Source of the DNA: Candidatus Zixiibacteriota bacterium
Lineage (GTDB): Bacteria > Zixibacteria > MSB-5A5 > WJJR01 > JAJRUJ01
Length of the DNA: 64,000 nt
Assembly: GCA_020051695.1 (NCBI GenBank)
Contig: JAGVQM010000011.1
Span: 62,001 to 126,000 of the forward strand
Direction: 5' to 3'
A program made the translations under genes and the position numbers. The notes beneath the pieces were generated by a model. It saw nothing but the letters and a program-made list of their open reading frames with translations, was not told the origin of the DNA and ran no database searches. Shown one piece after another: positions 5,974 through 34,491 of the stretch. Numbering within the stretch: position 1 is the stretch's first letter; each line of letters opens with the position of its first letter.

Positions 5974-6399
5974 CAGATTTGTTTCTTTCCTGTGTCCGTC
6001 GGCCGGCGCCGGTCACCTGTGCGCCGGATTTTTCCGGGCATCTCCACCGCGAGGGCAGGTGCTGCCGTGGTTTTCGTTCAAAGTCGGATCCCACCCCGAT
6101 CTGCGCCATCGGGAATGGTTTATCAATATTATTATCGACAAAAAACGAAATCGTCTGAGTCCTGTCCATTATCGCTTTATCCAATAACTTGTTGTTGGAT
6201 AACGGGAAATAGTCTTCGCGTCGGCAATATTTCTCTTTCGGCGCCACCTCGCGGGAGGACCGTCACCGGCTCCGGCCGGTTTATCGGTGTCTCCGGCATT
6301 TGCATCTTTGCGCTCGGCATGGTAATGTGCTACTTTCGGGGCTTGGAAACGGGGCCGGCCCGGCCCCGGGAACACATGCGGGCCGAGGAGAGGGACACC
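5974..6399. other. Divergent intergenic region, no gene seen
   Basis: This is 426 bases between the divergent kinase and small exported protein genes. I see no credible coding frame. It holds a perfect 8-bp inverted repeat, TTATCCAA at 6177-6184 and TTGGATAA at 6195-6202, which could be an operator or a hairpin, and several GC-rich dyads near 6000. Confidence 0.4.
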
Positions 6400-6774
6400 A
6401 TGTATTACAAAATCGGATGGCTAATGCTCGTGATGTGCGTTGCCGGTGCGGTGCAGGTTTCGGCGCAAACTTTTACTTTCGAAAAAATTTCCAACGAATT
6501 GTCCGTGTATCAGAACTATGCCGATGATGTCCACACCCGCGGCCAGACAGTGCAGGTGGTTTCGATCAACCGTTTCAGGATCGGCTGGTGGTTTCAGACT
6601 GAGTTTACTGCTGATTTCAATCATGATTACGACAAAGCCCGGGCCTGGGATTACTACCTCGAGGTCGGCATTGTCAAACCGCTGTTCAGCGGGCTATCGG
6701 TGAATTATCAGCGCGTCGAAGGGACGTTTGTCACCGAACCGACCAACCAGGTGGGTTTGCGCTGGACTTTTTGA
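6400..6774 (+). CDS. Small exported beta-barrel-like protein
   Basis: 124 residues starting at an ATG preceded by GAGGAGAGG. The first 22 residues form a signal peptide (hydrophobic core WLMLVMCVAGA, cleavage expected after VSA). The mature part has alternating polar and aromatic residues typical of amphipathic strands and ends in NQVGLRWTF, a C-terminal Phe preceded by alternating hydrophobics as in outer-membrane barrel proteins recognised by the Bam complex. Residues such as WWFQTEFTADF and WDYYLEVGIVKPL look like barrel strands. At this length it could supply only a few strands, so it is either a very small barrel, an oligomer or the remnant of a larger one. I do not recognise the family. 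Confidence 0.6.
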   Translation: MYYKIGWLMLVMCVAGAVQVSAQTFTFEKISNELSVYQNYADDVHTRGQTVQVVSINRFRIGWWFQTEFTADFNHDYDKARAWDYYLEVGIVKPLFSGLSVNYQRVEGTFVTEPTNQVGLRWTF

Positions 6775-6841
6775 AATGCAGCATGTTGCCGGCGGTGCTG
6801 TGGCGCGAGAGATCGCCGCACCGTGGTAATCCGGATTGCGC

Positions 6842-8389: not shown

Positions 8390-8605
8390 CGCTAAATATT
8401 AGAATAAGTTATCTCTTCTCGACGGTGATTTTAGTCGTTAGCCGGACTCTTCGGCTTTCATCGAAATCATCAGTCAATCGTATGTATTTAGGGGAAACGA
8501 CCGGAGGTGTGCCGGAACAGCGGATTGCTGCGGTTCATTGCCAGTGTGGGGGCGCCGGCAGCAGGTCCGAGGTTGAGAAACTCCACAAATGCGGGCAAAA
8601 TGCTG

Positions 8606-8633
8606 TTGACAATATCGGCCGGTCCGATATCTT
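8606..8633 (+). promoter_or_regulatory. Candidate promoter with operator-like dyad in the spacer
   Basis: A consensus -35 TTGACA (8606-8611) is followed after 16 bases by TATCTT (8628-8633). The spacer contains the inverted repeat ATATCGG / CCGATAT (8612-8618 and 8624-8630), which would place a repressor between the -35 and -10 boxes. It lies about 110 bases before the first DUF3857 gene. Nothing in the window identifies the regulator. Confidence 0.4.
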
Positions 8634-8717
8634 GAATAAGGGATGGAAGCCCCTGCCGCCTGCAAGTCCTTCCACTGTCCCGGGAGTGCATCTCCTGTGG
8701 GGGTGGTTAGTGGTGTG

Positions 8718-8726
8718 TGATATAAT
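8718..8726 (+). promoter_or_regulatory. Candidate extended -10 promoter
   Basis: The sequence TGATATAAT is a perfect extended -10 (TGnTATAAT) without a matching -35. It lies 14 bases before the GTG at 8740 and would give a very short leader. It is an alternative to the promoter at 8606. Confidence 0.3.
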
Positions 8727-8739
8727 CAAAATCCGGCTG

Positions 8740-10746
8740 GTGTATCGGCGGATCGTGGGTTACCCGTCATCGCTGTCGCGACAGCTCCTTGCCACATTTC
8801 TTTATATATCTTCTTCTGTTTGTTTGTCTTATGCACTGCCTGTGTCGGCCGGAGAAATCCCGACCCCGACCTGGGGCGTGATGGACCGGCTGGAAATGGG
8901 GCGCGATTATCTCGTCGACGACCCGGCCGCAGCCGCTTCTGTTGTCTTCGATAAGGGAGATATTGTCGTCGGGCCGGGATACACATTTGCCTTCCGCCGC
9001 CGTTGCCGAATGCAAATTTTTTCTCCCGCGGGTTATCGTTACGCCACGACTAAAATCCCCTACCACCGGGGGGAGAAGATTATCGGCCTGGAAGCCCATA
9101 CGATCACGCCGGATGGACGCCGGGTCAAAGTGCCGAAAAACCGGATTTACAATATTGATAATGGCCGCTGGCGCGCCCTGGTTTTCGCTTTTCCGGAGGT
9201 GACGCCGGGTTGCATTGTCGAATACCGGTATGAGCTGCAGAGCCGGGATTTCTATTATCTGCGGCCCTGGGTGTTTCAAACCGATATCCCGACGGAGCAC
9301 TCCCAACTAGTGGTGCATTTGCCGCCGGGTTTCGAATACGCGGCGGTAATCAACGGCTATAACAGCGTCAATTCGCCGATTATCGATTCGTATTATTCGG
9401 CAGAACACCATAACGCGCGGGTCAAGACTTTCGGCTGGGTGGCCGAGCATCTGCCCGCGTTGCGCCCGTTACCCTATATGGCGAGTCTGGAAGACCATCG
9501 CACTCGGCTTGATTTTCAGATTGTCAGCTATCGGACCAAGGAAGCCGACCGGAGATTTATTGACTCCTGGCCTGACCTGGTCGACCGCGTGCGTTCATGG
9601 TATGAAGAATTGCTCGATCTTTCGCCGGAAGTCGAACAGTTTGCCGAGAACCTGGCCTCGGAGACGACCGGGCGGCGGAAATTCGCCGAGTCGGCCTACC
9701 GTTTTTGCCGTGATTCAATTGGGTTCGTGGCCGGCAGCCGGACCGTTTCGGCCGAGGACTTGCAGCCGATTTGCCGGGTGTTGCGCGAGCGGCGGGGCAG
9801 TGCCGTGGAAAAAAACCTGCTGCTGGTCGCCCTATTGCGCTGGGCCGGCCTGAACGCCGATCCGGTGCTGATCTCGACTTTGGACCATTTGTATTTTGAT
9901 GTTCGCGATCACCGCCTGGACCAGCTCAACCATGTTATTGTCCGTTGGGCGATGCCCGATGATATGGTTTTTCTGGATGCCTCGGACCCGGCCGGATGGT
10001 TCGGGCTTTTGCCCCCGTCGGCGATTGTCGACCAGGGGATATGGATTGGCCGGGATGATGGCGGCATTATTGATATCCCCGCCGATGATTTCGAGCATTC
10101 CGCACAATTGCAGGCCGAGTTCAATTTGACTCCTGATGGCAACGCCACCGGCCGACTGACCGGCCGGTTGACCGGTTTTCGGGCTTGGGAATGGGCCGGC
10201 CGCGCCGCCCCGGGAGATATCGAATCATATCTCCGGTCGACCCTGATGCCGGCGGCGACCGGTCTCCGTGTTCTCGAATTGCGTGCTCCGAGCCGTGTCG
10301 AGGACGGCGCGGTGGAATTCGCTCTGGAGATTGCGCTGCAGGGGGCGGCAATGGCGGGCGCGGGCGGTTTGTATTTCCGTTCCACCGGTCCGTTTGCGCA
10401 CATGGATAATCCGTTTGTTGATCCTCAACGCCCTTTCCCGGTGGCCTTTGATTTCCCTTATAGTGATCTGGTGAGGATTACCTGGCGCCTGCCCGAGGGA
10501 TATACGGTTGCGGAGATACCCCGGGGCGGCGGCAAGCACACGAATGACCTCGATTATACCTGCGGGATAGTTGCTGACGGCAGGACGATCACCGTTGAAC
10601 GGCGCCTGAATGTCGGGCGGCGCCATTTTCCCCGTTCGGCATACGGGGAGTTGCAGGATTTCTTCGGCGGGATAGTGGATATCGACCGTAGTCTCGCCGT
10701 GGGCATTAAAACCGCCGGTCAGACCACCGCCGCATATTCTCGGTAA
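8740..10746 (+). CDS. DUF3857 / transglutaminase-like exported protein lacking the catalytic Cys
   Basis: About 668 residues. The frame is open from 8425, but the convincing start is near the GTG at 8740 (or 8755), because a signal peptide follows directly (hydrophobic core LLATFLYISSSVCLSYA, cleavage after VSA). A DUF3857 domain occupies roughly residues 60-260 and a transglutaminase-like domain about 290-450. In the family the catalytic motif reads roughly GDCKDKATLL; here it reads RGSAVEKNLLLVALLR, so the Cys position is Ala. The later His (QLNHVIVRW) and Asp (FLDASDP) remain. It is therefore probably a binding or structural envelope protein. A second family member follows after 12 bases, so the two are likely one operon. 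Confidence 0.75.
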   Translation: MYRRIVGYPSSLSRQLLATFLYISSSVCLSYALPVSAGEIPTPTWGVMDRLEMGRDYLVDDPAAAASVVFDKGDIVVGPGYTFAFRRRCRMQIFSPAGYRYATTKIPYHRGEKIIGLEAHTITPDGRRVKVPKNRIYNIDNGRWRALVFAFPEVTPGCIVEYRYELQSRDFYYLRPWVFQTDIPTEHSQLVVHLPPGFEYAAVINGYNSVNSPIIDSYYSAEHHNARVKTFGWVAEHLPALRPLPYMASLEDHRTRLDFQIVSYRTKEADRRFIDSWPDLVDRVRSWYEELLDLSPEVEQFAENLASETTGRRKFAESAYRFCRDSIGFVAGSRTVSAEDLQPICRVLRERRGSAVEKNLLLVALLRWAGLNADPVLISTLDHLYFDVRDHRLDQLNHVIVRWAMPDDMVFLDASDPAGWFGLLPPSAIVDQGIWIGRDDGGIIDIPADDFEHSAQLQAEFNLTPDGNATGRLTGRLTGFRAWEWAGRAAPGDIESYLRSTLMPAATGLRVLELRAPSRVEDGAVEFALEIALQGAAMAGAGGLYFRSTGPFAHMDNPFVDPQRPFPVAFDFPYSDLVRITWRLPEGYTVAEIPRGGGKHTNDLDYTCGIVADGRTITVERRLNVGRRHFPRSAYGELQDFFGGIVDIDRSLAVGIKTAGQTTAAYSR

Positions 10747-10758
10747 TCGGTTATTGAT

Positions 10759-12666
10759 GTGGCCAGCGACTCCCGCTTTTTCCGCTTTGTGCTGCATATA
10801 ACCCTGGTATTGAATTTCGTCCTTCCCCGCAGCGTCTCCGGGCAGCCCGCGGCATTTGTCGCCGACCGTCCGGCGGCGGAATGGTTGTACGATTACTGGA
10901 AGATCGAGGTCTCGCCCACCCGGGGAATAATCCTGGATATCGACCGCAAGGCGCGGGTCAATGCGCTGCAGGGCCGCGCGGTGGGCCGGCTGAAAATCTG
11001 GGAGACCTTCTATCAATCATTGCAGAAATTCAGCGGGACACTCAGCGATACCCTCGGTGGAATCCTGTTCCAAATCGAAAAAGCAGATCTCAAATCCGGT
11101 TTTCCCTTTTCCGATTATCGGTTGTATTCCGAAGACCGTTTGTATGAAGTCGACCTGGCCGCGCCGTCGTTCCCGTATTTTGTGGAGTACCATTACCAGG
11201 TACTGATTGATAATACTTTTTTCTGGCCCGATTGGGTGTTTCTTGATGAGTACCCACGGGACAGCGTGTCCTACACGGTTGCCGTGCCGCACCGTTTCGC
11301 CTACCGCACGCGGGAAGTGTGGCCCGGGTTGCGGGTGGACACCGACCGCTCCCTTAAACGGGACATCACCGTATGGTCGGCGGTCGATGTCCTGCCGGAA
11401 ACCGTGGCGGGAAGTGCCCCCCTGCCGGTGATGTATATCGCCCCCGAGAATTTTGTTGTTGCCCGACAGCGCGGGAGTACAGAATCATGGGCCAGTCTCG
11501 GCAGTTGGTACGATAAGTTGACTGAAGGCCGCCGGAAAATCACCAAACAGCAGGCGCGGGAAATCAAAGCGCTGCCCACCAATCCCGCAGACCCCTACAC
11601 GGTTGTCTTGGAGCTTAAGGATTTTGTTTCCCATAACTGGCGGTATGTGGCCATTGAGGTCGGCATCGGCGGCTGGCGTCCTCATGAGGCCGCGTCTGTG
11701 TTCGACAGCAAATATGGCGATTGCAAGGACCTGACCTATCTGTGGCTGGCCATGCTCGACCAGTTCGGCATCGAAGCACACCCGGCATTGCTGCGCACGC
11801 GCCTCCGCCAGCCCATCATGGCGGATTTCCCCAAGGATTGGTTTGACCATGTTGTCGGTTGTGCAGTCATCGGCGCCGACACGATCTGGGCCGATCTGAC
11901 CGCCCCCGGATACCGCGCGGGCACACTACCCTACCAGGCCGAGGGCCGGCATGCACTGGTCATTACCAAAAACGGCGGTGTGTTGTGTCGTACGCCCGGC
12001 TCGCGGCCGGCGGATAACGTGGTGATTCGATCACTGACCGGGAATCTGCAGCGGAACGGCGATCTCGCTTTCTCGCTGCGCGCGGAGGTGACCGGGCACA
12101 AATTGCGCGTGCTGGGTACCGGGACGTCAACCAACAACGACGATCGCCGGGCCGCGGAAGTCCTGGGCGTGCTTCCCGGACGGTTGACGGCTGAGGCCAT
12201 GTCCTTTGCGGCGAATCCGGACGGCATCTCGGCCGGCGTACAGGTCACCGGGATCATCGCGGAATGGGCGGAGTTTACCGGTCAGCGAATTGTTTTCCCC
12301 CTGACGTTTGCCGGCTGGGCCGCGCCGCAGCCGATGGTTGAGCCGGGCGACGGCTATTCTGCGACGCGACGGCCCTATCCCTGCCGCGAAATCGATTCAT
12401 TGCTGATTATCCTGCCAAGTGGGTATGCGTGCGAATTTATGCCCGCGGACGTGGTCGTCGATGAAGGCCCGGTGCATTTTGCATTCTCTTCCCGTTTTGC
12501 CGGGGACACCTTAATCTATTGTCGGGATTTTCAGTATGCCGCCGGCCGTGATCAGGCGGAGACCCCCGACCTGGATGGGCATTCCATCGCCGCCATTCAG
12601 AATGCCGATGCAGTATTCGTTCGTGTGGCCGAGCCCGCGGGGGATTCCGCCACGAGTACATTTTAG
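10759..12666 (+). CDS. DUF3857 / transglutaminase exported protein with intact active site
   Basis: 635 residues starting at GTG 10759 with a signal peptide (core FVLHITLVLNFVL, cleavage after VSG). A DUF3857 domain covers about 40-240 and a transglutaminase core about 250-400. The catalytic Cys is present in KYGDCKDLTYLW, with His in WFDHVVG and Asp in IWADLTAPG, so all three members of the triad can be assigned. The protein could cross-link or cleave peptides in the periplasm; the substrate is unknown. It sits 12 bases after its catalytically dead paralogue and converges on the saccharopine-dehydrogenase-like gene with a 17-base gap. The pair suggests an active and inactive subunit acting together, which is an inference. 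Confidence 0.8.
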   Translation: MASDSRFFRFVLHITLVLNFVLPRSVSGQPAAFVADRPAAEWLYDYWKIEVSPTRGIILDIDRKARVNALQGRAVGRLKIWETFYQSLQKFSGTLSDTLGGILFQIEKADLKSGFPFSDYRLYSEDRLYEVDLAAPSFPYFVEYHYQVLIDNTFFWPDWVFLDEYPRDSVSYTVAVPHRFAYRTREVWPGLRVDTDRSLKRDITVWSAVDVLPETVAGSAPLPVMYIAPENFVVARQRGSTESWASLGSWYDKLTEGRRKITKQQAREIKALPTNPADPYTVVLELKDFVSHNWRYVAIEVGIGGWRPHEAASVFDSKYGDCKDLTYLWLAMLDQFGIEAHPALLRTRLRQPIMADFPKDWFDHVVGCAVIGADTIWADLTAPGYRAGTLPYQAEGRHALVITKNGGVLCRTPGSRPADNVVIRSLTGNLQRNGDLAFSLRAEVTGHKLRVLGTGTSTNNDDRRAAEVLGVLPGRLTAEAMSFAANPDGISAGVQVTGIIAEWAEFTGQRIVFPLTFAGWAAPQPMVEPGDGYSATRRPYPCREIDSLLIILPSGYACEFMPADVVVDEGPVHFAFSSRFAGDTLIYCRDFQYAAGRDQAETPDLDGHSIAAIQNADAVFVRVAEPAGDSATSTF

Positions 12667-12683
12667 CCCGGCGGCGTGCTGCT

Positions 12684-13826
12684 TCAGTCGATGCCTGTGA
12701 TCTGAATATTGCGGCGCCGCAATTCTTCGATGAATTCGGTGGGCGGCACGCCCAGCTCCTGGCCGAATACGCCGGTGCGCGTAATGCGCCCGGCGGCCTG
12801 CATCTGGGAAACAATTGCCGCGGGGTAGGAAGTCATCCGCGCCATCGAGGTTATTTCCCGCCGCTCATCGTAATAGTCGACGATGGTCAATTCCCGGGAC
12901 CGGCGCGTCGTGCCTTCCGAGCCGGAAAACGCGACGCGGACCAGGGTCACATCCTGCTGATTGTGCGGCAGGCGTTCCAGCAGCATCCGTGCTGTTATTT
13001 CACGCGGCGCAATGGCGCCCGATTGCGTCTTGATTTTTTCCGAGGAGAACAATCCCAGCCGATACATCGCGGCGATTATCGCGCCATGTCCGGGATATCT
13101 GATCGTTTTATAGTCGAGGTTTTTCAGGCGGCCGGCATATGTCTCCGGCAAGGTGGACGTCCCGCCCGAGGTATAAAACGCCTCGACTTCTTCAAAGGGC
13201 GTGGGGAACGCCAGCGTTTCAATTTCGGTGAGCGGCTCGACAGTTACGACCTGTCCGTCGCGCAAAATGGTTACGGGTTCGACGTATTCGTTGATCAGAC
13301 CCTCGACCGAGAAAATCAGCGAGTAATTCAATGGCGGCTCCGGGCGCTGGGGCAATCCTCCGACCCGGATGCCAATGGAGTCAACCCACGGCCAGCGGTC
13401 CACGCCCCAGGCGGCCAGTACACTGACCATCCCCGGCGCCAGTCCGCAATCGGGAATAACGGAAATCCCGGCCCGGCGTGCCCGGTCATCCAGTTCCAAT
13501 TGGCGGCGGACAATTGTATTGTTGCCCCCCAGGTCGCAAAAATGAGTCCGGGTATCGATTGCCGCTTCGGTAAAATGGACATTGAAGCCGTAATGAATGG
13601 CCGCGAGGCAGGCGTCCGCCGGCTGCATCAGTCTGCGGACCTGTTCGGGGTCGGCGGCGTCAAATTCCAAGGTCGTCAGCCGGGGATCGCCGAAGCGTTC
13701 CTGCAATCGTAACAGGTTATCCGGATTGTAGTCTGCGGCCGTTACCGCTGTTGTCGATTGTTGTTGCAGGAAGTCATAACAGGCGACTTGCCCCATCTTG
13801 CCGGCGCCCAGGACCAGATATTTCAT
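12684..13826 (-). CDS. Saccharopine dehydrogenase family oxidoreductase
   Basis: 380 residues with an N-terminal Rossmann fold (MKYLVLGAGKMGQVACYDFL) binding NAD(P). The catalytic/C-terminal domain follows saccharopine reductases and lysine 6-dehydrogenases, with DLGGNNTIVRRQLELD and PDCGLAPGMVSVLA. Family members oxidise or form saccharopine or lysine-derived imines in lysine metabolism, and this short single-domain form is closest in layout to L-lysine 6-dehydrogenase-like proteins. The exact substrate cannot be read from the sequence. The divergently read gene beside it is a broken solute symporter, which may once have imported a related amino acid. Confidence 0.75.
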   Translation of the reverse strand: MKYLVLGAGKMGQVACYDFLQQQSTTAVTAADYNPDNLLRLQERFGDPRLTTLEFDAADPEQVRRLMQPADACLAAIHYGFNVHFTEAAIDTRTHFCDLGGNNTIVRRQLELDDRARRAGISVIPDCGLAPGMVSVLAAWGVDRWPWVDSIGIRVGGLPQRPEPPLNYSLIFSVEGLINEYVEPVTILRDGQVVTVEPLTEIETLAFPTPFEEVEAFYTSGGTSTLPETYAGRLKNLDYKTIRYPGHGAIIAAMYRLGLFSSEKIKTQSGAIAPREITARMLLERLPHNQQDVTLVRVAFSGSEGTTRRSRELTIVDYYDERREITSMARMTSYPAAIVSQMQAAGRITRTGVFGQELGVPPTEFIEELRRRNIQITGID

Positions 13827-13992
13827 TGCCGCTCCCGCCAGGTTTCGTGCGTTTTTTTAAATTATCCATTGACTGACTACGCAGATCCCGGCCCGGTTTA
13901 TGGCCGCCTGCTGTCTAATTCCGGGTGGGCAAAACAACGGGGGCGGTGTATATTCCCGCTCAGCGTAATTTTTGACTGGTGGAGGCGCAGCC

Positions 13993-14941
13993 GTGGTCTA
14001 TTTCTGGTTTATTCTGGTGTACCTGATTTTTTTGATCGGCGTCGGCATGTACCGCAGCAAATATGTTCGCACCTAGGAGGATTTTGTCGTGGCCGGGCGC
14101 AACCTGTCGGCCAAAGTGCTGGTCGGCACCCTGCTGGCGACCTGGATCGGTTCGGGGAGTATCATCGGCGGGGCCGGGCTGGCTTTCGACCGTGGTTTTT
14201 CCGCGCTGTGGTTTTCGGTGGGGGCCTGGGCGGCCATTGTTGTCCTCTATATGGTCGCCGGACGGGCACGAAATCTGGCCCAGTTTACCGTTCCGGACAT
14301 GCTGGAGATGCGCTACAACAAATATGCCCGCGCGTTGGGCACGCTGGTGACCGTGATCGCCTACACCGCCATTGTCTCCTACCAGTTCCGGGCCGGCGGC
14401 TAAGTGCTCAACCTGGTGACCGGCGTCCATCCCGATATCGGGATCGTCACTACGGCCGTGTTTGTGATCGGGTATACGGTGTTGGCCGGGATGATTTCGG
14501 TGGCGTATACCGATGTCGTCAACGGCATCTTCATGGTCCTGGGCTTGTTTATTGCGTTGCCGTTCATGCTGGCCAACGCCGGGGGGTGGTCGGCCGTCGT
14601 TGCCGCCCTGCCCGCCGATCATTTTACGGTCATGGGGGAAATGACCGTCTGGGAGGCGCTGGGGTACACCCTGCCGACGATGCTGTTGATGCTCGGCGAA
14701 TCGGGGATGTACCAGCGGTTCTTCTCCACCAAAAATGCGGGGATCGCTAAACGATCGGTCGGGGGGTGGATTCGATGGCCGGCGGGATGATCGTTACGCT
14801 GCTGTGGGAAATATTGAAACAACCATTCGGGATGAATACTGTCTACCCGGCGCTGGCCACCTCGTGATCTTGTTGATCGTCGTCAGTTTATGCGGTAAAA
14901 AACCGGACGAAGCCAAATGGGGACCGTTTTTCACTACGTAG
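13993..14941 (+). pseudogene. Sodium:solute symporter (SSF family) pseudogene
   Basis: A GTG start at 13993 with a good GGAGG seven bases upstream opens a typical SSF N-terminus (VVYFWFILVYLIFLIGVG). The frame is stopped by TAG at 14074 (between VRT and EDFVVAGRNLS) and TAA at 14401 (between FRAGG and VLNLVTG), yet clear SSF sequence continues through both (GTLLATWIGSGSIIGGAGLA; GEMTVWEALGYTLPTMLLML). Near 14765, after KRSVGGWI, a large internal part is missing, and the C-terminal end (MIVTLLWEILKQPFGMNT, then KKPDEAKWGPFF) is spread over other frames. Two stops, frameshifts and a deletion mean a decayed gene. Intact family members have about 480-500 residues. Confidence 0.85.
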
Positions 14942-15028
14942 GTACTATGCTATCCCCAATGAGGCGTTGTGGCGGGGATAGGATGAGGCTACACTTCGGG
15001 AAACGAACACAACACGTGGTCATCGTGT

Positions 15029-15080
15029 TTGGCGTACGTCCTTCCCCGCACGTTGTGCGGGGATCTTCGACGTGCGCCAA
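15029..15080. repeat. Palindromic element with nested hairpin
   Basis: Outer arms TTGGCGTACGTC and GACGTGCGCCAA (11 of 12 paired) enclose a GC-rich hairpin CCCCGCAC..GTGCGGGG. Short relatives of the outer arms occur at 29761-29781 and 31968-31988. A further dyad (TCGGG..CCCGA) follows at about 15097-15118. The stretch between the symporter pseudogene and glyA holds no gene. Confidence 0.55.
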
Positions 15081-15128
15081 CAATCAATTCTTGTCGGGGT
15101 TCTTCGGAACCCGACCTACATCTGTTGC

Positions 15129-16388
15129 CTACAGCGGTTTGTCCTCCAGCCGTTTGCCGTAGAGCGGGAACAACCGGCATAACTCCAGCACGTCCGCAGC
15201 CACTTGGGCATAGGTTGCCTCATCGCCGAGATTGGAGATGACCTTGTGAATAAATCCGGCGATTGTTTTCATTTCCCGTTCTTTCATGCCGCGTGTGGTG
15301 ATCGCCGGGGTGCCGATGCGGACGCCGGAGGTCACCAGCGGTTTGCGGGTGTCGAACGGCACGGTGTTTTTATTCACGGTGATGTTCGAAGCGTCCAGCG
15401 CGTTTTCGACTTTCTTGCCGGAGTAGTCGGCCTCGATGAACGACAGCAGCATGAGGTGTGTGTCTGTCCCGCCCGCGACGACATGATATCCATAGTTGAG
15501 AAATTCCTGTGCCATCGCTTTGGCGTTGGCGACAATCTGTGTCTGGTACTGTTTGAATTCCGGCGTGGCGGCTTCTTTAAACGCCACGGCTTTGGCGGCG
15601 ATGACATGCATCAGCGGTCCGCCCTGGATGCCGGGCATGACCATGCGGTCGAGGTCGGCCGCGTATTGTTCCTTGCACATCACCAGCCCGCCGCGCGGCC
15701 CGCGCAGGGTTTTATGCGTGGTCGAGGTCACAAAATCCGCAAAGGGCACCGGCGAGGGATGCAATCCCGCCACGATCAGCCCCGCGATATGCGCGATATC
15801 GACCATCAATTTCGCGCCGCAGTTGTCGGCGATCTCGCGGAATTTCTGGAAATCGATGAAACGGGGATAGGCCGAGGCGCCGGTGACGATCAATTTCGGT
15901 TTGTGTTCATTTGCCAGCCGGGCGACCTGGTCATAGTCAATTTGTTCGGTGTCTTTGCGTACGCCGTAGCCGTAGACCTTGTACAGCTTCCCCGAAAAAT
16001 TCAGCGGATGGCCGTGCGTGAGGTGGCCGCCGCAGGCGAGGTCCAGCCCCAGGATCGTGTCGCCGGGGCTGCAGACGGTCATGTACACCGCCATGTTGGC
16101 CTGCGAGCCGGCGTGCGGCTGGACATTGGCGTGCTCGCAGCCGAATAGCGCGGTGAGTCGTTCGCGGGCGAGGTTTTCGGCGACATCGACATATTCGCAC
16201 CCGCCGTAGTAGCGCCGTCCTGGGTACCCCTCGGCGTACTTGTTGGTCATCACGCCGCCCTGTGCCTCGAGGACGGCCTCGGAAACGAAGTTTTCCGAGG
16301 CGATCAGCTCCAGCTTTTCGGCCTGCCGCTTCGTTTCGTTATACAACGCTGCGTAAATTTCCGGGTCTTTGGTTTTGAGTATGCTCAT
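15129..16388 (-). CDS. glyA: Serine hydroxymethyltransferase
   Basis: 419 residues, the usual length. GlyA interconverts serine and tetrahydrofolate with glycine and 5,10-methylene-tetrahydrofolate, using PLP. Visible signatures are [10 protein letters not shown] near the N-terminus, YYGGCEYVD, the DIAHIAGLI motif, and the PLP-binding lysine in [13 protein letters not shown]. The ATG at 16388 is chosen because GGAAGGAAAC precedes it and the protein then begins [15 protein letters not shown] as in the family. The start overlaps the stop of the upstream DUF5677-like gene by ATGA, so its translation may be coupled. It supplies glycine and one-carbon units that tie in with the gcvH/gcvPA genes at 49 kb. 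Confidence 0.96.
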
Positions 16389-17861: not shown

Positions 17862-19790
17862 TTACAACCTCGCCTTCACCAGATTCTCCGCGCCACCGGC
17901 GACGACCAGTTCCTGCGCTACGGTGGACAGTGGCGGGAACGTGAATGATTGGCCGTCACAGATGATCGTCGAATTTCGATAATCGACCGTGAGCGCCGGG
18001 CCGACGATGGTCGGTTTCTTTTCGGCGGCGTATTTATTCCGCAGATAATCGACCAGCGCCGGGCATTCAAACACGACAAAGCCGTTGTTGAATGCGTTAC
18101 GCTTGTACGTCTCGGAAAATGACACCGCGGCCACACAACTAATCCCCCGATAAGCCAGCGCGGTGGCGGCCTGCTCGCGCGAGGACCCGCTGCCGAAATT
18201 CCGCCCGGCGACGATGACATCGTTGGTCTGCGCCAGTTTCTGGAATTCGGAATCGTAGTTAAGCATACACGCCGCCGCCATCTCGTCTTTGGTCAGGTTA
18301 TCTTTATACGTAAACTCGCCGCCGTAAATGCCGTCGGTGTTGAGATTATCGATATTCAACCATAATGCGCGGCCGGTCACCGACGCGGGGAAACCCTCGA
18401 TGATCGTCACCGGCTCGGAGGGCCGCTTGGCCGAGCCGTGGACGATGATCGTCGTTTTCCCTTTCATGTCGCTGTATTTGACCGGCCCGCTGATATACCC
18501 GGCCACTGCGGAGGCAGCGACCACGGCGGGGCTGCCGAGGTATACCTGCGCGTCACGATGACCCATACGACCCTTGAAATTGCGGTTGGTGGCGCTGATT
18601 CCCACCTCACCCGCTTTTAGCGTGCCCACTCCCAGCCCGATACACGGCCCGCAACCGGGGGATAAGGTCAGCGCACCGGCATCCACCAGCGCCTGCCAAT
18701 AGCCCAGATCCTCGGCGGCCTTTTGGACATTGGCTGACGCGGCGGCAATGAAAAAATCGACGCCGTCGGCAACTTTTTTACCCTTAACAACCCTGGCGGC
18801 CTCGGCAAAATCCTCCAGCCGGGCATTGACACAACTAAGCAGATAGGCCTTCTGGATTTTGACTTTCTTCTGTTCCATCTCCGGTACGGAAGTCATTGTC
18901 TTCACATTGGCCGGTCCCGAGACATGCGGGATGACGGTCGATAAATCGAGCGTCAAATCGATGTGATAATGCGCGTCGCAGTCCGGGGTCAGTTGGACGG
19001 TAAACCCTCGTTTTATTTCGTCATGGTTGCAGCGTGACACGCCTTTCGCCTTGAGATAGTCGGCCCGCATGTTTAGGAAATCGTACAGGACATCATCATA
19101 GGGGAACACCCCGGCCAGCGCGCCCCATTCAGTGGTCATATTGGCGATACTCATCCGCTGGTCCATGGAAAGCTCGGCGATACCCTCGCCGGTGAATTCA
19201 ACCGCCATGTTGAGGACTTCATCATGGTTAAACAACCCGCACAACGCGATGATGACATCCTTGCCGACGACACCGGGCTGGAGTTTGCCGGTCAGGGTCA
19301 CCCGCGCGATTTGCGGGACTTGCCACCAGGTTTGGCCGGTGGCCCAGATCGACGCGGCATCCGTGCGCACGACCGGGGTCCCCAGGGCATTGATCGCGCC
19401 GTAGATATTCGAATGCGAGTCACTGGCCACCACCATACTGCCGGGGGTGACATACCCCTCCTCGATCATCACCTGATGACTGATCCCGGTGCCTGCCGGA
19501 TAAAAATCCACCCCATGCTCGCGGGCGAAATTCTCTATTTTTTTATATTTAGCCAGGTTTTCGGGCGAGGTGTTCTGGATGTCGTGGTCGATCGCAAAGA
19601 CCGGTTGGCGGGGATCGGCGATTCGGGCTGCGCCGATTGTCCTAAACTTGCCGATGACCGCGCTGGTGTTGTCGTGGGTCATGATATGTTTGGGGCGGCA
19701 GGTAATGAAATCCCCGGCGTAGATTTTCGTCCCCGGTTTCAGTCCGACAGCGTGAGCGGTGGCAATTTTTTCGACGATGGTTTGACCCAT
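17862..19790 (-). CDS. Aconitate hydratase, Aquifex type
   Basis: 642 residues, a single-chain aconitase of the shorter homoaconitase-like (Aquifex) type rather than the 850-900-residue AcnA or AcnB. It interconverts citrate and isocitrate with a 4Fe-4S cluster. The three cluster cysteines are in LLSCVNARL (about 318) and SPGCGPCIGLG (about 380). The C-terminal swivel domain carries GRNFGSGSSREQAATAL and the substrate motif around TYKRNAFNNG. Start ATG 19790 has AGGAAAGGG upstream. It lies at the end of a minus-strand block with citryl-CoA lyase and a CoA-synthetase pair, the expected company for a reductive or bidirectional citrate pathway. Confidence 0.92.
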   Translation of the reverse strand: MGQTIVEKIATAHAVGLKPGTKIYAGDFITCRPKHIMTHDNTSAVIGKFRTIGAARIADPRQPVFAIDHDIQNTSPENLAKYKKIENFAREHGVDFYPAGTGISHQVMIEEGYVTPGSMVVASDSHSNIYGAINALGTPVVRTDAASIWATGQTWWQVPQIARVTLTGKLQPGVVGKDVIIALCGLFNHDEVLNMAVEFTGEGIAELSMDQRMSIANMTTEWGALAGVFPYDDVLYDFLNMRADYLKAKGVSRCNHDEIKRGFTVQLTPDCDAHYHIDLTLDLSTVIPHVSGPANVKTMTSVPEMEQKKVKIQKAYLLSCVNARLEDFAEAARVVKGKKVADGVDFFIAAASANVQKAAEDLGYWQALVDAGALTLSPGCGPCIGLGVGTLKAGEVGISATNRNFKGRMGHRDAQVYLGSPAVVAASAVAGYISGPVKYSDMKGKTTIIVHGSAKRPSEPVTIIEGFPASVTGRALWLNIDNLNTDGIYGGEFTYKDNLTKDEMAAACMLNYDSEFQKLAQTNDVIVAGRNFGSGSSREQAATALAYRGISCVAAVSFSETYKRNAFNNGFVVFECPALVDYLRNKYAAEKKPTIVGPALTVDYRNSTIICDGQSFTFPPLSTVAQELVVAGGAENLVKARL

Positions 19791-21048: not shown

Positions 21049-21582
21049 TCATCCTCCGACCAGTTCAAAATCAATAAAATCGCAATGGTGGAACACAATG
21101 CCCTCCGGCGTGCGTTTGCCGCCGGCGGCTTCCTTGGAGTGCATGGCGATCACATGCAGCACCGCATCGGGAATTTTCTGCTCCCAGGCCAGTCCGACAC
21201 CGGAAAATGGATGACGCAAGTATTTGGCATGTTCGGATTTGACATACTTCCCGTCGACATAGGCAAACTCCAGCACCTTGCCGACATCGGCGAGCAAGGC
21301 CCCGGCAATCAAGATATCGCGGTTGACATTGTTGCGGTCGCCATAGGCCTTCTGTAACACGTCCCACGTAGCCATACACATGCGGCACACCGTGCGCACA
21401 TGTTCGATAAAAGTCACCTTCACTCCGGAAACCAGCAGGGTGAACGGCATCGTCTTCAGGTTGTCCAGCGACAGGTCGCCTTTGTCCAGCGCAGCGCCCC
21501 AGGTGTTAATCGTGTTTTCGCGCAGCGTGGCGTCGGCGATTTCGTTGACTTCGGGGAGCATCTTGATGATTTGATCACGCAT
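21049..21582 (-). CDS. HD-superfamily-like protein with altered HD motif
   Basis: 177 residues resembling small HD phosphohydrolases: an N-terminal metal His (EHVRTVCRM), a core helix GALLADVGKVLEF, then YLRHPFSGVGLAWE and VLHVIAMHS. The hallmark HD doublet, normally in a motif like LLHDVGK, reads A-D here, so the first metal ligand is missing and classic hydrolysis is doubtful. It may bind a nucleotide or act as a regulator. It lies 69 bases downstream of the citryl-CoA lyase gene with a good binding site (AAGGAATTT), so it is probably part of that operon. Confidence 0.7.
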   Translation of the reverse strand: MRDQIIKMLPEVNEIADATLRENTINTWGAALDKGDLSLDNLKTMPFTLLVSGVKVTFIEHVRTVCRMCMATWDVLQKAYGDRNNVNRDILIAGALLADVGKVLEFAYVDGKYVKSEHAKYLRHPFSGVGLAWEQKIPDAVLHVIAMHSKEAAGGKRTPEGIVFHHCDFIDFELVGG

Positions 21583-21651: not shown

Positions 21652-22428
21652 CTATGGCTTGCGCTCGGCCGGGCCGTCATAGGTCCAGGCGCCGGGATCG
21701 ATCTTGCGCATCGGTTTGTGCCGGGTGCGTTCTTCGTGAACGTGTGCGATGATCCCTGCCGTGCGCGAGAGAATAAAAAACGCATTGGACAGGTCCGGAG
21801 GCACATTCAATTCGCACAACACGGCGCCGATAGCGCCGTCCACATTCAACGGCAATTCTTTGCCCAACACCTTCGGCAAAGCACTTGCGATGGCCAGGGA
21901 CATCGTGACATACGGGCCGCCAAACCCGAGTTCCTCGGCCAGTCGCATCAATTTCACTTTGCGCGGGTCCTCGGTGTGCACGCGATGGCCGTAACCGAAC
22001 AAAGTCTTTTTGGCGGCGCGATAGTCGGTGACCAGTTTTGTCGCGGCGTCGGCGGCGGAGAGGTTGTTCTCCTTTTGCAGCTTCACGGCCGCGATCAGCA
22101 TTTTCATGCAATTTTCAATGGCGCCGCCGTGATACTGGTTGATCGACATGATCCCCGCCGCGATGGACGCCGACAGCGATGCCCCGGTGGAGGCCACGAC
22201 CAATGAAGACAAAATCGACGGCGGGGTGACGCCATGATCGACCGATGAAACGAGGATCGCATCGATCATTCTGCCGGTCTTGTCGTCGGGCAACTCACCG
22301 AAAATCGCCAGATAGGCGACCTGCGCGAAACTGGCCGTGCCCATCAGCTCCGCAATCGGATAACCACGGACGTTGATTTTATTTTTGCCGATATCGGTGA
22401 TCGCGGTCGGCCAGTTATTTTCACTCAT
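21652..22428 (-). CDS. ccl: Citryl-CoA lyase (citrate-synthase fold)
   Basis: 258 residues: a citrate-synthase-fold protein much shorter than true citrate synthases (about 370-430), matching the length of citryl-CoA lyases. It should split citryl-CoA into acetyl-CoA and oxaloacetate. Conserved catalytic-type residues are His in SSVDHGVTPPS, the motif GYGHRVHTEDPR, and Asp in NVDGAIGAVLCEL. The binding site AGGGGTGAAC precedes the ATG at 22428. The stop of the synthetase small subunit is 17 bases upstream, so the three genes 24972 to 21652 form a natural citrate-cleavage operon. Citrate synthase in the forward direction is an alternative but less likely at this length. Confidence 0.85.
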   Translation of the reverse strand: MSENNWPTAITDIGKNKINVRGYPIAELMGTASFAQVAYLAIFGELPDDKTGRMIDAILVSSVDHGVTPPSILSSLVVASTGASLSASIAAGIMSINQYHGGAIENCMKMLIAAVKLQKENNLSAADAATKLVTDYRAAKKTLFGYGHRVHTEDPRKVKLMRLAEELGFGGPYVTMSLAIASALPKVLGKELPLNVDGAIGAVLCELNVPPDLSNAFFILSRTAGIIAHVHEERTRHKPMRKIDPGAWTYDGPAERKP

Positions 22429-22445
22429 AGTTCACCCCTGGTTGC

Positions 22446-23357
22446 TTACATCTTTCCCGATAAACTTGCCAGCACCTTTTTGGTGACGGCCGGAATATCG
22501 CCGAAATTTTCCACGACATGCGCACCGGCGGTTTTCAGCCGTTCGACTTTGCCTTCATACGTGCCTCGGCCGCCCTCGATGATCGCTCCGGCATGGGAAA
22601 AACGTGTGCCGGATTTGGCGCCGCGTCCGCCGATGTAGGCGATAATCGGTTTGGTGACCGCGCCGGACTCAATCAAATCGGCGACGGTTTCCTCCTGTGA
22701 GCCGCCGATCTCGCCGAACATGACCACGGCTTTTGTCTCCGGATCGGCCTCGTATTTTTTGATGATTTCCGGGTGGGGGAGACCGACGACCGCATCGCCG
22801 CCCACATGGACGATTGACGACAATCCCACACCGGCCCGGGACAGGTAATAGGCAATCGATGAGGTAATCCCGCCCGAACGGGAGGTCACCCCGCAGTTGC
22901 CCGGCAAAAACCAGTTGCGCGCTGAGGCCGCGCTGCCGCCGATCATGCCTAAAACGGCCTTACCAGGGGACAGCAGACCCAGCGTGTTGGGCCCGACGAA
23001 CTCCGCGCCCATTTCTTTGGCGACTGCAGCGATTTCCAGCACATCGTAAATCGGCACGCGGTCGGGGACAATCACCAGCAGCTTGATCCCGGCGGACAAC
23101 GCCTCGATGGCCGCGTCCTTGACCAGGGGCGCGGGAACAAATATCGTGGAGATGTCGACCTGTCCGATGGTTTCGACCGCCTCTTCCAGCGTGTCGAAGA
23201 CCGGGACCCCCAGCACGGTTTCGCCGCCTTTGCCGGGGGTACACCCCGCTACAACAGTGGTGCCGTATTCAATCATCAATTTCGCCCGGGCCATGCCCTC
23301 GCGGCCGGTGATGCCCTGGACGATGACTTTTTTGGTTTGATCGATGAGGATGCTCAT
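22446..23357 (-). CDS. Succinyl/citryl-CoA synthetase alpha-like subunit
   Basis: 303 residues from the ATG at 23357 ([18 protein letters not shown]). It has the CoA-binding Rossmann domain ([38 protein letters not shown]) and the ligase domain with the phosphorylated His in [11 protein letters not shown]. It is the SucD-like partner of the ATP-grasp subunit encoded just upstream. Together the pair would make an acyl-CoA from ATP, CoA and a carboxylic acid. The neighbouring citryl-CoA lyase argues for citrate as substrate (CcsB-like), while succinate remains possible. The sequence alone does not decide between them. Confidence 0.88.
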
Positions 23358-23430
23358 GAGTTTTCTCGTTCTCAATATATCCATGTCGGGTTTCTCCGTC
23401 CCCGCCGTGGCGGGGCCTCCGGAACCCGAC

Positions 23431-24972
23431 CTACGTTCTACCCAAATATTTGTCCAGGCCCGCAATCGGCAAATCCACGTACCCGCCGGCGGCGCCGTGC
23501 TGCTCGCATTCGATCTCGCAGGCCAGGCATTCGGTACATTTGCCTTTGGCCGCATCCTCGACAGTGATCGCCAGGACCGGCAAACCATTCTCCAGTTTCA
23601 GGATTTTCGGCACACACTTTTCGACACAAATTTTTGATTCACATTTCGCGCATCGATCGTGATCGAAGGTAACCTTGCCGGTAATGGTCTTGAATGAATA
23701 CGGTTTCGCCGCCATCGGCTTTGGCCGGGGTTTGGGTTTTTCCGCCGGGGGCCGGTATTCGGCCAGCAGTTTTTGCATCCGCTCGGCACAGTAATCGGCC
23801 GGGTCGTCTTTTTTGTACCCCTCCACCGGCGCAGGCAGGTCGGTCGTATATTCCGTTAAAATCTTGATCGCCAGGTCTTCAAGGTTGCCGCCCAGCCGGA
23901 TGACTACCGGGACCGAGATATTTTCCTCGCGGAAGGCCTTGACCAGTCCACGCGCCGAGTGAAATTGTTCCTGCGAAGCCACGCCGGAACCCGAGCCGAA
24001 ATAGCCGTCAATATTGGGCTGGGCCAGGATGATTTTCGCCGCGCGATAGACTTTCGAGGCCGGGGGGTTGCCGGAGGTGTCGCAGAAATTGGCGATCTGG
24101 TAGCCGCGTTTGGTTAGCGCGTCCATGGACATCATCGACCCCCCGCCGCCCGCGCCATGGAAGCCGAGGTATTTTTCGCCTTTGTTGTATCCCCGGGCCA
24201 GTTCGATGAAATAGAACGTCCCGCGCCAATCGTTTTTTTCCACGTCGTAGGCGATTTTATCGAGTGCGGTGGGCGGGTGGCCGAATTCCCGGGCGATTTC
24301 GATGCCCAGGTCGGCGTGCCGGAAAACCGCATAGTCATCGACGGTGAACCGGCAGTCGGCGGCGACAATCTCGCCGGATTCGACAACCACCAGCGGATTA
24401 ATCTCCGCCGAACGGGCCTCGTATTTCCGGGCTGCCTCATATAATTTGACCGCCGTCCCGGCAAGCTGGACTTGCAGTTTGCCGGTAACGCCGGTTTTGC
24501 GGATGGCGTTACGTGCCTCGAAATCCCGTAGACCCCAGCGGATATCGACCAGGGCATGAGCGACTTTGTCCGGGTGGGCCCGGGCGATTTCCTCGATACC
24601 GGTGCCGCCGACCGAAGAAAAAATCATGCGCGGGCATTTGTTGGTGTCGTCGATGATTATCCCGAGATAGAATTCGCGCGTAATTTTTAATTTTTCTTCA
24701 ACGAGTACTTCGGTGACCGGGAAGCCCTTGATTTCCAGTCCCAGCATTTTTTGCACCGCGGCCCGGGCCTCCGCGGGCGAACCGGCGAACGCGATGGCGC
24801 CGATCGAGGCGCGGCCGGTGGTCCAGGCCTGAGCTTTGATCACCGCGGGAAGGCCGACGGTTTCTATTGCCTCGTCGGTTTCGCCGACATTTCGGACGAC
24901 ACGATATTGAGGAATTTTAATCCCGGCCTCGGCCAGGAGTTTTTTGCCTTGATATTCATGCAGTCGAGCCAT
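23431..24972 (-). CDS. ATP-grasp CoA synthetase beta subunit fused to a 2x[4Fe-4S] ferredoxin domain
   Basis: 513 residues; ordinary SucC has about 390. Residues 1-230 are an ATP-grasp domain (RLHEYQGKKLLAEAGI, AEINPLVVVESGE), about 250-400 the flavodoxin-like ligase domain (GSGSGVASQEQFHSARG, VVIRLGGNLEDLAIKI). After a Pro/Lys linker (PKPRPKPMAAKP) comes an extra domain with eight cysteines in two ferredoxin sets, CAKCESKICVEKC (about 443) and CTECLACEIEC (about 480). This predicts two 4Fe-4S clusters on a CoA synthetase, which needs no redox cofactor. The start has AGGAGG ten bases upstream. With the alpha-like subunit and lyase it would cleave citrate in two steps, as in Hydrogenobacter CcsA/CcsB/Ccl, perhaps docked to a ferredoxin-dependent partner. 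Confidence 0.88.
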   Translation of the reverse strand: MARLHEYQGKKLLAEAGIKIPQYRVVRNVGETDEAIETVGLPAVIKAQAWTTGRASIGAIAFAGSPAEARAAVQKMLGLEIKGFPVTEVLVEEKLKITREFYLGIIIDDTNKCPRMIFSSVGGTGIEEIARAHPDKVAHALVDIRWGLRDFEARNAIRKTGVTGKLQVQLAGTAVKLYEAARKYEARSAEINPLVVVESGEIVAADCRFTVDDYAVFRHADLGIEIAREFGHPPTALDKIAYDVEKNDWRGTFYFIELARGYNKGEKYLGFHGAGGGGSMMSMDALTKRGYQIANFCDTSGNPPASKVYRAAKIILAQPNIDGYFGSGSGVASQEQFHSARGLVKAFREENISVPVVIRLGGNLEDLAIKILTEYTTDLPAPVEGYKKDDPADYCAERMQKLLAEYRPPAEKPKPRPKPMAAKPYSFKTITGKVTFDHDRCAKCESKICVEKCVPKILKLENGLPVLAITVEDAAKGKCTECLACEIECEQHGAAGGYVDLPIAGLDKYLGRT

Positions 24973-32655: not shown

Positions 32656-34491
32656 TCATCCCAGTCGTTCAGCAACATACTGCGCGATGTCTTTGACCTG
32701 CACATCCTCGACATCTTTAACCGCCAGCGCATCACGCAGCATGATCGGGCAAAACGGGCAACCCGCCGCAATTTCTTTGGCCCCGGTTGCCAGCAGCTCC
32801 TCGGTCCGTTTATGCGGTACGCGTTCGCCCTGGTTTTCCTCATTAAACAACTGTGCGCCGCCGGCGCCGCAACAGAACGATGTCTCCCGTGTCCGCCGGG
32901 GTTCCAGAATATTCACACCTGCCGAGCGCAACACCGAACGCGGCGCGTCGCAGCCGGCCTTGCCCTCGTACCGTGACAGGTAGCACGGGTCGTGATAGAC
33001 CGCGCAGGTGCCGTTACCGCCGGTCAGCTGGAGCTTGCCCGAGGCGAGCAGTTCTTCGATAAACAGCGCATGATGGACAACACGGATATTCGCGTTTAAG
33101 CCGAGTTGGGTATATTCGGTCAATGTGCGCAGGCAATGCGGGCAGGTGGTGACGATGGTTGTCGGGTTGGCGGCATTAAGCGCCTCGATATTTTCCAGGG
33201 CCAGTTCCTGAAATTGATACTCATTTCCGGCGCGGCGGGCGGCATCGCCGGTGCATTTTTCCTCGCGCAGCACACCCCAGCCGACCCCGGCGGCGCTGAG
33301 GATTTTGGTGAAGGCCAGCGACACCTGCCGATATTGCACGTCATAGCGGGCTAGACACCCCATCCAGTACAACACCTCCTGGCCGTCATACGATGGGTAT
33401 TCGTGCGTATCGAGAAATTCCTCGGCCTGGTTTTGGGTATACCCCCACGGGTTGCCGTTGCGTTCGAGGTTTTTCATCAACGCGGTCATCGGCTCGGGGA
33501 ATTCGCCCTCGGCTCCAAGGCCGCGCCGCAGTTCGAGGATCGGGACTACCTGATCGATCCCCACCGGACATTGGTAGGTGCAGGCGCCGCATGTCGTGCA
33601 CTGCCAGATGGCTTCGACCGGCAGGATTTCGTCGGTCAACACGCCCGCATCGGCCGGTTTAGTCAAATACCCCTGCCGTAAATCGAGCATGAGTTGCTTG
33701 GGGTTGAGTACCTTGCCGGTCTGGTAGGCCGGGCAGTTGTCCTGGCAGCGGCCGCATTCCACGCAGGTAAACGCCCCTAGCGCGGTGTGCGTCGAGAGGT
33801 CCTTCAACGCCACTGCACCGAATTCCTCGGCTTCAAAATCGAGCGGCCTGACATCGGCCAGGCGGAACGACTTGGTGAATGTGGTCAGCGGCGAAAATAC
33901 CAGGTGCAGGTGTTTACTGTGCGGGATCAGTGCGGCGAAGGCCAGGATCGTCATCGTGTGCACCCACCAGTTGATTTTGTACGCCGGGGAGTCCGGCGGG
34001 AACAGGTGAATGCCGAAAAGGTAGGTCAGCATCAATATCGTAATGAATACCGCCACAATCCCGGATGTCGCCGACAGATGCTTGCCCAATGCCTCGGGAC
34101 GCATAACAAACCGCCGAAAGGCCAGATAGAGAATGCCCATCAACACCAGCACCGACCACAGCGAGACTACCTGTGAGACAATTCGGAAAACCACGCCATG
34201 CCCTAAAAGCGAAAAACCGAAACCCTCGGCAAAGTGGTGCAAGGTGGCGGGAATATAAAATATAAAGCCCCAGAACACCAGGGCATGCATGAACCCCGGC
34301 ACCCGCCGCTGGGAAATCACCGTACTCTGGAACACGACTTCAGCGAACCAACGCCCCAACCGCCGCCCGAAATCATCAAAAGCCAGCGTGCTTTTGCCGG
34401 AGGTGATCAAGTCAATACGCTTTTTGACCGGCAGCCAGAAGGCCACAGCAGCCGCCACAATTAATACTGCCAGAATAATCGCTTCAATCAT
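32656..34491 (-). CDS. Membrane (Fe-S) oxidoreductase, EtfQO/HdrD-like
   Basis: 611 residues. The N-terminal third has about five to six transmembrane helices with His residues suited to heme b, as in the NarI/cytochrome b-type domain (MHALVFWGFIFYIPATLHHF). Two 4Fe-4S motifs follow (CVECGRCQDNCP about 265, CTTCGACTYQCP about 320), then two CCG domains (GCLARYD..CTGDAARRAG..CPHC and DPCYLSRYEG..CCGAGGAQ..CPFC) of the HdrB/HdrD/GlcF type. Such fusions pass electrons from ETF or an acyl-CoA/2-hydroxyacid dehydrogenase to menaquinone. No etfAB genes are adjacent, so the electron donor is not known. Confidence 0.9.
   Translation of the reverse strand: MIEAIILAVLIVAAAVAFWLPVKKRIDLITSGKSTLAFDDFGRRLGRWFAEVVFQSTVISQRRVPGFMHALVFWGFIFYIPATLHHFAEGFGFSLLGHGVVFRIVSQVVSLWSVLVLMGILYLAFRRFVMRPEALGKHLSATSGIVAVFITILMLTYLFGIHLFPPDSPAYKINWWVHTMTILAFAALIPHSKHLHLVFSPLTTFTKSFRLADVRPLDFEAEEFGAVALKDLSTHTALGAFTCVECGRCQDNCPAYQTGKVLNPKQLMLDLRQGYLTKPADAGVLTDEILPVEAIWQCTTCGACTYQCPVGIDQVVPILELRRGLGAEGEFPEPMTALMKNLERNGNPWGYTQNQAEEFLDTHEYPSYDGQEVLYWMGCLARYDVQYRQVSLAFTKILSAAGVGWGVLREEKCTGDAARRAGNEYQFQELALENIEALNAANPTTIVTTCPHCLRTLTEYTQLGLNANIRVVHHALFIEELLASGKLQLTGGNGTCAVYHDPCYLSRYEGKAGCDAPRSVLRSAGVNILEPRRTRETSFCCGAGGAQLFNEENQGERVPHKRTEELLATGAKEIAAGCPFCPIMLRDALAVKDVEDVQVKDIAQYVAERLG

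Follow-up and report, generated by a model that had tools for sequence, protein, structure and literature searches.

The window, meaning here the whole 64,000-nt stretch of contig JAGVQM010000011.1 of Candidatus Zixiibacteriota, contains on its minus strand three contiguous genes for proteins resembling the beta (SucC) and alpha (SucD) subunits of succinyl-CoA synthetase (SCS) and for a protein of the citrate-synthase fold. These genes are considered here as a putative citrate-cleavage cassette, composed of a citryl-CoA synthetase (CCS) and a citryl-CoA lyase (CCL, or Ccl), with an iron-sulfur (Fe-S) domain on the large synthetase subunit. The genes and the motifs used for their assignment are as follows:

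23431..24972, minus strand: SucC-like beta subunit with a C-terminal dicluster domain; 513 aa, ATG start, GGAGG upstream; Pfam ATP-grasp_2, E=7.6e-49
24220..24276, minus strand: residues 233-251 of the SucC-like protein, motif PPT-x13-D-W-R-G; corresponds in HMMER alignments to RPPT...RDDHRG in Hydrogenobacter CCS and to a gap in Thermus SCS
24136..24150, minus strand: residues 275-279, CCS-type substrate loop GGGGS; G275-S279 invariant, SCS has GAGLA/GAGLV
24058..24081, minus strand: residues 298-305, CCS-type DTSGNPPA; DIGGNPPA in CCS, DVGGGA and similar in SCS
23614..23652, minus strand: first cluster motif, C-x2-C-x4-C-x3-C (C441, C444, C449, C453), invariant
23506..23538, minus strand: second cluster motif, C-x2-C-x2-C-x3-C (C479, C482, C485, C489), invariant
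22446..23357, minus strand: SucD-like alpha subunit, 303 aa; CoA_binding and Ligase_CoA domains
21652..22428, minus strand: predicted citryl-CoA lyase of the citrate-synthase fold, 258 aa; NF004869 240 bits, cut-off 212

Pfam and NCBIfam assign the three genes to ATP-grasp_2/SucC, to CoA_binding plus Ligase_CoA/SucD and to citryl-CoA lyase, respectively. The ATG start of the SucD-like gene is kept in homologues (MSILID...), and its stop is separated from the start of the lyase gene by a spacer of 17 bp. An earlier note on this DNA had given the same three open reading frames (ORFs), strand, positions and gap, all of them correctly. Chance or misread ORFs are ruled out by the conservation of the cassette across phyla.

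The 258-aa protein is a predicted citryl-CoA lyase with intact catalytic residues. It also exceeds the cut-off of NF004868 (210 bits vs 193), while the remaining CCL models stay under theirs, and it scores far under the cut-offs of the curated citrate synthase models. Its best match in PDB is Hydrogenobacter CCL (6hxp) with 175 bits, the top citrate synthase reaching 74 bits; with these scores and the curated CCL models passed, the protein is CCL-like and clearly no citrate synthase, as the earlier note had supposed. Residues His100, His148, Asp197, Arg156, Arg222 and Arg241 are invariant in 24 lyase homologues from many phyla and align with 6hxp; we take the first three together with the three arginines to be the catalytic and oxaloacetate-binding positions of the citrate-synthase fold. 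A citrate synthase fragment is ruled out by the scores and by a separate, full citrate synthase of 425 aa, encoded on contig C22 of the home genome.

Both synthetase subunits stay under the curated cut-offs for true SCS subunits: the SucC-like protein scores 236.5 with TIGR01016 (cut-off 375.6) and 242 with PRK00696 (370), and the SucD-like protein scores 289 with TIGR01019 (353) and 287 with PRK05678 (336). The motifs GGGGS, GNPPA and PPT..D-x-R-G are common to the SucC-like protein and Hydrogenobacter CCS (6hxq_B) and are absent from SCS, so that the predicted CCS likeness of the large subunit is concentrated in the substrate (acid-binding) region. In the SucD-like protein, His255 within RFSHAGAI is the candidate phospho-histidine.

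In a tree of 30 rows, the Fe-S SucC family forms one clade (support 99/98). The tree is unrooted, and a branch with support 91/91 sets true SucC, the home copy included, and a second SucC paralogue opposite the Fe-S clade and CCS. The placement of CCS is unsure, being given by one partial sequence (residues 3-346) on a very long branch; this sequence was taken from a HMMER alignment with a hybrid query, and the rank of CCS in that search is no evidence. Fe-S SucC thus appears as a clade of its own apart from true SucC, its orthology with CcsA being unsupported so far. A duplicate of sucCD is ruled out, as a separate true sucCD was found on contig C17 of the home genome, close to ORFs resembling (by eye) malate and isocitrate dehydrogenases.

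Phylogeny of the synthetase and a genome search for a separate sucCD had both been proposed in the earlier note. The pair lies outside the SCS clade and is not the succinyl-CoA synthetase of the genome, a second sucCD exists, and the lyase does not group with full citrate synthases. The suggestion of a CcsAB-type synthetase held for the substrate motifs of CCS and found no support as regards orthology with CcsAB; the pair stands in a clade of its own, bears a fused Fe-S domain and is nearer to SCS over its whole length.

The C-terminal tail of the SucC-like protein, absent from the earlier note, comprises about 90 residues and carries two four-Cys motifs within residues 441-489. Every one of the 86 complete sequences, the copy in the window among them, has all eight Cys (three pairs represent the same genome twice; an 87th row, L119, is incomplete and was left out), and 21 of 28 family members match Pfam Fer4 at E of at most 0.01. 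In the AlphaFold2 (AF2) model, the predicted local distance difference test (pLDDT) score of the domain is mostly above 90. The sole sequence match of the tail profile in PDB (E=0.0013) is to chain D of 8ys5, which is a small subunit of 2-oxoglutarate:acceptor oxidoreductase. The tail is expected to be a ferredoxin-like domain, predicted to bind two [4Fe-4S] clusters. No description of an Fe-S fusion to citryl-CoA or succinyl-CoA synthetase was found by exact-term searches of the open-access literature, in which the candidate papers on the lyase were judged by title and opening of the abstract and the one match for the succinyl-CoA enzyme concerned a eukaryote; the family is apparently undescribed, and its novelty is provisional because subscription papers and preprints lay outside the search.

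With one genome scanned for each GTDB species, 336 relatives were found, and the distribution given here covers the best 80 of these; the ranking favours full-length relatives, so that tail-less members may be under-represented. By title, the best 80 belong to Zixibacteria, Gemmatimonadota, KSB1, Calditrichota, Marinimicrobia, Cloacimonadota, Aminicenantes, Acidobacteriota, Chloroflexota, Coatesbacteria, Eremiobacterota and Syntrophobacteraceae, and nearly all are metagenome-assembled. The Fe-S synthetase cassette recurs in about ten bacterial phyla, mostly uncultured. Two further genes of the window belong to the conserved neighbourhood:

21049..21582, minus strand: HD-domain protein, 177 aa, directly 3' of the lyase gene; PF01966, E=4.9e-5
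17862..19790, minus strand: aconitase of the homoaconitase (TIGR00139) type, 740.7 bits, cut-off 529.9

Genes for SucD and Ccl adjoin SucC(Fe-S) at 38 of the 44 loci whose downstream sequence extends over 4.5 kb or more, and the HD gene is also present at 31 of them; an aconitase-family gene was found at 25, a gene resembling isocitrate or homoisocitrate dehydrogenase at 20 and an MmgE/PrpD gene at 9. The order SucC(Fe-S)-SucD-Ccl-HD protein-aconitase is found in Zixibacteria, Gemmatimonadota, KSB1, Marinimicrobia, Aminicenantes, Chloroflexota, Acidobacteriota and others, and relatives of the same class keep the order of the cassette. In L047-L049 the aconitase gene lies immediately 3' of the HD gene; elsewhere the two are separated by spacers. 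In Syntrophobacteraceae (L141), genes for the beta and gamma subunits of 2-oxoglutarate:ferredoxin oxidoreductase (OGOR), a fumarate-reductase-like flavoprotein and fumarase beta and alpha precede those for SucC(Fe-S), SucD, Ccl and an HdrB-like protein; OGOR genes lie divergently next to the cassette in Anaerolineae (L099/L125); in KSB1 (L071/L076), the cassette stands between lipoamide dehydrogenase/LipB genes and NuoB- and NuoCD-like genes. Such neighbours indicate citrate as the substrate.

Taken together, the cassette quite probably encodes a citryl-CoA synthetase, to which a ferredoxin-like domain is fused, and a citryl-CoA lyase, converting citrate to acetyl-CoA and oxaloacetate with ATP. 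As judged from the chemistry of the family and the substrate motifs, the SucC(Fe-S)/SucD pair would use ATP and CoA to convert citrate to citryl-CoA, with a phosphohistidine intermediate, and the lyase, given its conserved catalytic residues, would cleave citryl-CoA to acetyl-CoA and oxaloacetate. Aconitase, in many relatives together with an enzyme resembling isocitrate dehydrogenase (IDH), would connect citrate to isocitrate and 2-oxoglutarate. The ferredoxin-like tail probably serves redox sensing or docking to ferredoxin-dependent partners, e.g., OGOR. The reactions of the cassette should be reversible.

The home genome contains seven POR_N proteins, KorA-type oxidoreductases among them, and a flavoprotein of the Sdh/Frd family; several 2-oxoacid:ferredoxin oxidoreductases, for which the earlier note had proposed a search, are thus present. 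No long E1 of 2-oxoglutarate dehydrogenase was found in the home genome, which has a single short E1 subunit of 376 aa. With the citrate synthase of C22 included, these enzymes would be compatible with a cycle that is reductive, reversible, or oxidative and ferredoxin-based. Another region of the genome (C19:48000-66000, L062), at 3058-15819, contains genes for 3-hydroxyacyl-CoA dehydrogenase-like, acyl-CoA dehydrogenase and 2-oxoacid:ferredoxin oxidoreductase proteins together with LeuA/homocitrate-synthase-like, LeuCD-like, IPMDH/HICDH-like and thiolase-like genes; this cluster could combine 2-oxoacid elongation, ferredoxin-dependent decarboxylation and beta-oxidation.

Ccl, present in about three quarters of the 98 class relatives, occurs much more widely than the Fe-S synthetase. 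Outside the Fe-S carriers, Ccl and a SucC paralogue with the motif GGAGFGIMGND occur together in 51 genomes, the paralogue alone in 3, Ccl alone in 15 and neither in 21; the paralogue is present in none of the eight Fe-S carriers of the class. This distribution fits two interchangeable synthetases serving one lyase. The paralogue, of about 399 aa and with GGAGFGIMGND and GARFGGISRCDDFA, was noted in L022, L023, L026-L037 and L039-L043, all of the same class. In genome G003, of the same order as the home genome, Ccl and aconitase are present and the Fe-S pair is absent.

Several observations weigh against a citrate module of this kind. Over the whole length, both synthetase subunits score closer to SCS than to CCS in PDB. 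The AF2 model of the SucC-like protein (mean pLDDT 93.5), which has the fold of SCS/CCS/ACLY beta, superposes best on Thermus SCS, with a template modelling (TM) score of 0.85 by target length, against 0.67 for CCS. CcsB (353 aa, 6hxq_A) exceeds the SucD-like protein (303 aa) by 50 residues, and the match of the latter to 6hxq_A stops at chain residue 291; when a short SucD segment was compared, SCS ranked first and CCS was weak, no CCS signal appearing there in the small subunit. The tail is under the Pfam gathering cut-offs (Fer4_9 24.8 bits, cut-off 27, E=2.2e-5) and is therefore termed ferredoxin-like rather than a Pfam member. The significance of the co-occurrence of Ccl and the paralogue (Fisher p=3e-8) ignores the relatedness of the genomes, and because 15 related genomes hold Ccl and neither of the two special synthetases, the association has exceptions and Ccl may be independent of a special synthetase. 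These 15 genomes, the top whole-length matches to SCS and the L141 operon, in which Fe-S SucCD is coupled with OGOR, fumarate reductase and fumarase and which would suit SCS as well, would favour the Fe-S pair being a second succinyl-CoA synthetase or another dicarboxylate-CoA ligase, with the lyase acting separately. Such a role is unlikely: the CCS-type substrate motifs are invariant in the Fe-S SucC family, the order SucC-SucD-Ccl is kept across phyla, and the carriers retain a separate SucC closer to true SucC, 33 of the 34 other carriers searched having one at least 45% identical to the true SucC of the home genome. A substrate related to citrate, namely homocitrate or 2-methylcitrate, appears very unlikely. 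It would agree with the match of the aconitase to the homoaconitase model, with the IDH-like neighbour, which scores best with homoisocitrate/isopropylmalate models (all under cut-off), and with the MmgE/PrpD genes at 9 of 44 loci; however, the lyase keeps the counterparts of the oxaloacetate-binding residues, which disfavours a 2-oxoglutarate acceptor and leaves 2-methylcitrate unaffected, the home genome holds, at C19, its own gene of the homocitrate/isopropylmalate-synthase type with isomerase and dehydrogenase, and the neighbours in L141 and L099 are enzymes of the tricarboxylic acid (TCA) cycle.

With citrate as the favoured substrate, the same enzymes may also work in the oxidative direction, from acetyl-CoA and oxaloacetate via citryl-CoA to citrate, with ATP formed by substrate-level phosphorylation; this opposite net flux is possible, though somewhat doubtful. 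Among 42 carriers, citrate synthase was found in 33, including the home genome (two are cut by contig ends), so that a further enzyme for the forward reaction would be superfluous unless regulated. Seven of the 42 contain Ccl and no detected full-length citrate synthase, Re-type citrate synthase not having been searched for, and speak for the oxidative direction; of the other two, an incomplete genome contains a cut Ccl alone, and in the last neither Ccl nor citrate synthase was seen. The oxidative direction is also consistent with the lipoamide dehydrogenase, LipB, IDH-like and NuoB/NuoCD genes adjoining the cassette of KSB1, and has a precedent in Desulfobacter postgatei, for which ATP gain at citrate via ATP-citrate lyase is given in PMC9768450 by citation of Moller 1987. 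Net cleavage, supplying acetyl-CoA and oxaloacetate or turning a reductive TCA cycle, is slightly ahead of ATP-yielding citrate synthesis because most carriers also own citrate synthase. Of the proposal in the earlier note that the organism can cleave citrate with ATP, for carbon fixation among other purposes, the module itself is supported as probable; carbon fixation is not inferable, since citrate synthase is present in the same genome and an oxidative cycle would likewise employ all the cycle enzymes found.

As to the remaining genes of the locus, the aconitase lies on the same strand downstream, as had been noted, and is not adjacent to the lyase gene, three ORFs separating them: the HD gene, a pyridoxamine-oxidase-like gene and a GNAT acetyltransferase gene. 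Its description as "Aquifex-type" was not borne out, the profile being that of the TIGR00139 homoaconitase type; with the aconitate hydratase model PRK07229 it scores 363.7, under the cut-off of 612. MmgE/PrpD-family genes were found in the cassettes of L066, L067, L071, L076, L083, L084, L120, L123 and L137, several of these loci having no aconitase gene between the lyase and MmgE/PrpD genes; their product could be a citrate dehydratase that acts instead of aconitase or in addition to it. In L105, L106, L111, L115, L121 and L131 (mostly Aminicenantes), one isocitrate/isopropylmalate-dehydrogenase-like gene is located between two aconitase/LeuCD-type genes or pairs 3' of the cassette. In the HD protein of the home lineage (AF2 pLDDT 93.5), the His of the HD pair is replaced by Ala (LLADVGK), and profile and fold searches lead to HD phosphohydrolases, the best being a weak match to YhaM. 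Ala or Cys takes the place of this His in Zixibacteria, Gemmatimonadota, KSB1, Marinimicrobia and some Anaerolineae; the His is intact in Aminicenantes and other Chloroflexota. Elsewhere in the window, minus-strand genes encode a 611-aa heterodisulfide-reductase-like protein with Fer4 and CCG domains (32656-34491) and a saccharopine-dehydrogenase-like protein with PF16653 and PF03435 (12684-13826).

CCS and CCL are known from Aquificota and Leptospirillum. With CcsAB/Ccl of Hydrogenobacter thermophilus (6hxq, 6hxp) the cassette shares a two-subunit synthetase of the SCS fold, a separate CS-fold (citrate-synthase-fold) lyase of about 260 aa, the GGGGS and GNPPA motifs and the catalytic residues of the lyase; it differs in the Fe-S domain on the large subunit, the small subunit of 303 vs 353 aa, the distinct clade and the contiguity of its genes with those for the HD protein and aconitase/IDH. 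SucCD is alike in overall fold, ATP-grasp domain, phosphohistidine and the best whole-length scores, but SCS has GAGLA and DVGGGA loops and no Fe-S domain, and the Fe-S pair is outside its clade. ATP-citrate lyases of types I and II likewise activate and cleave citrate, but fuse the alpha and lyase modules. Chain D of 8ys5 is also a dicluster ferredoxin-like protein with two Cys-rich cluster motifs, the similarity being weak; it is a separate subunit, whereas the domain is here fused to an acyl-CoA synthetase. For Planctomycetes OTU-14, a mat member, the available part of PMC5459899 reports three separate CCS/CCL-like genes annotated as SucCD and citrate synthase, which are alike in being separate; an Fe-S domain is unmentioned in that part, and the comparison is by description only. 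Markers acl or ccl were reported for metagenome-assembled genomes including Zixibacteria (PMC11279179).

A widespread Ccl-linked synthetase resembling SucCD could escape surveys, and would affect the question of which uncultured anaerobes are able to fix carbon or to obtain ATP at citrate. It is chemically unexpected that an ATP-grasp acyl-CoA synthetase should carry a ferredoxin-like domain, because the synthetase reaction needs no electrons; redox control or coupling to OGOR is directly testable. Tentatively, the ferredoxin-bearing acyl-CoA synthetases might represent a new class of citrate-cleaving or citrate-forming enzymes, in which the ferredoxin pool and 2-oxoacid:ferredoxin oxidoreductases would gate citrate activation or be physically coupled to it, and might form a reversible citrate node in about ten mostly uncultured phyla, overlooked because the genes are annotated as SucCD.

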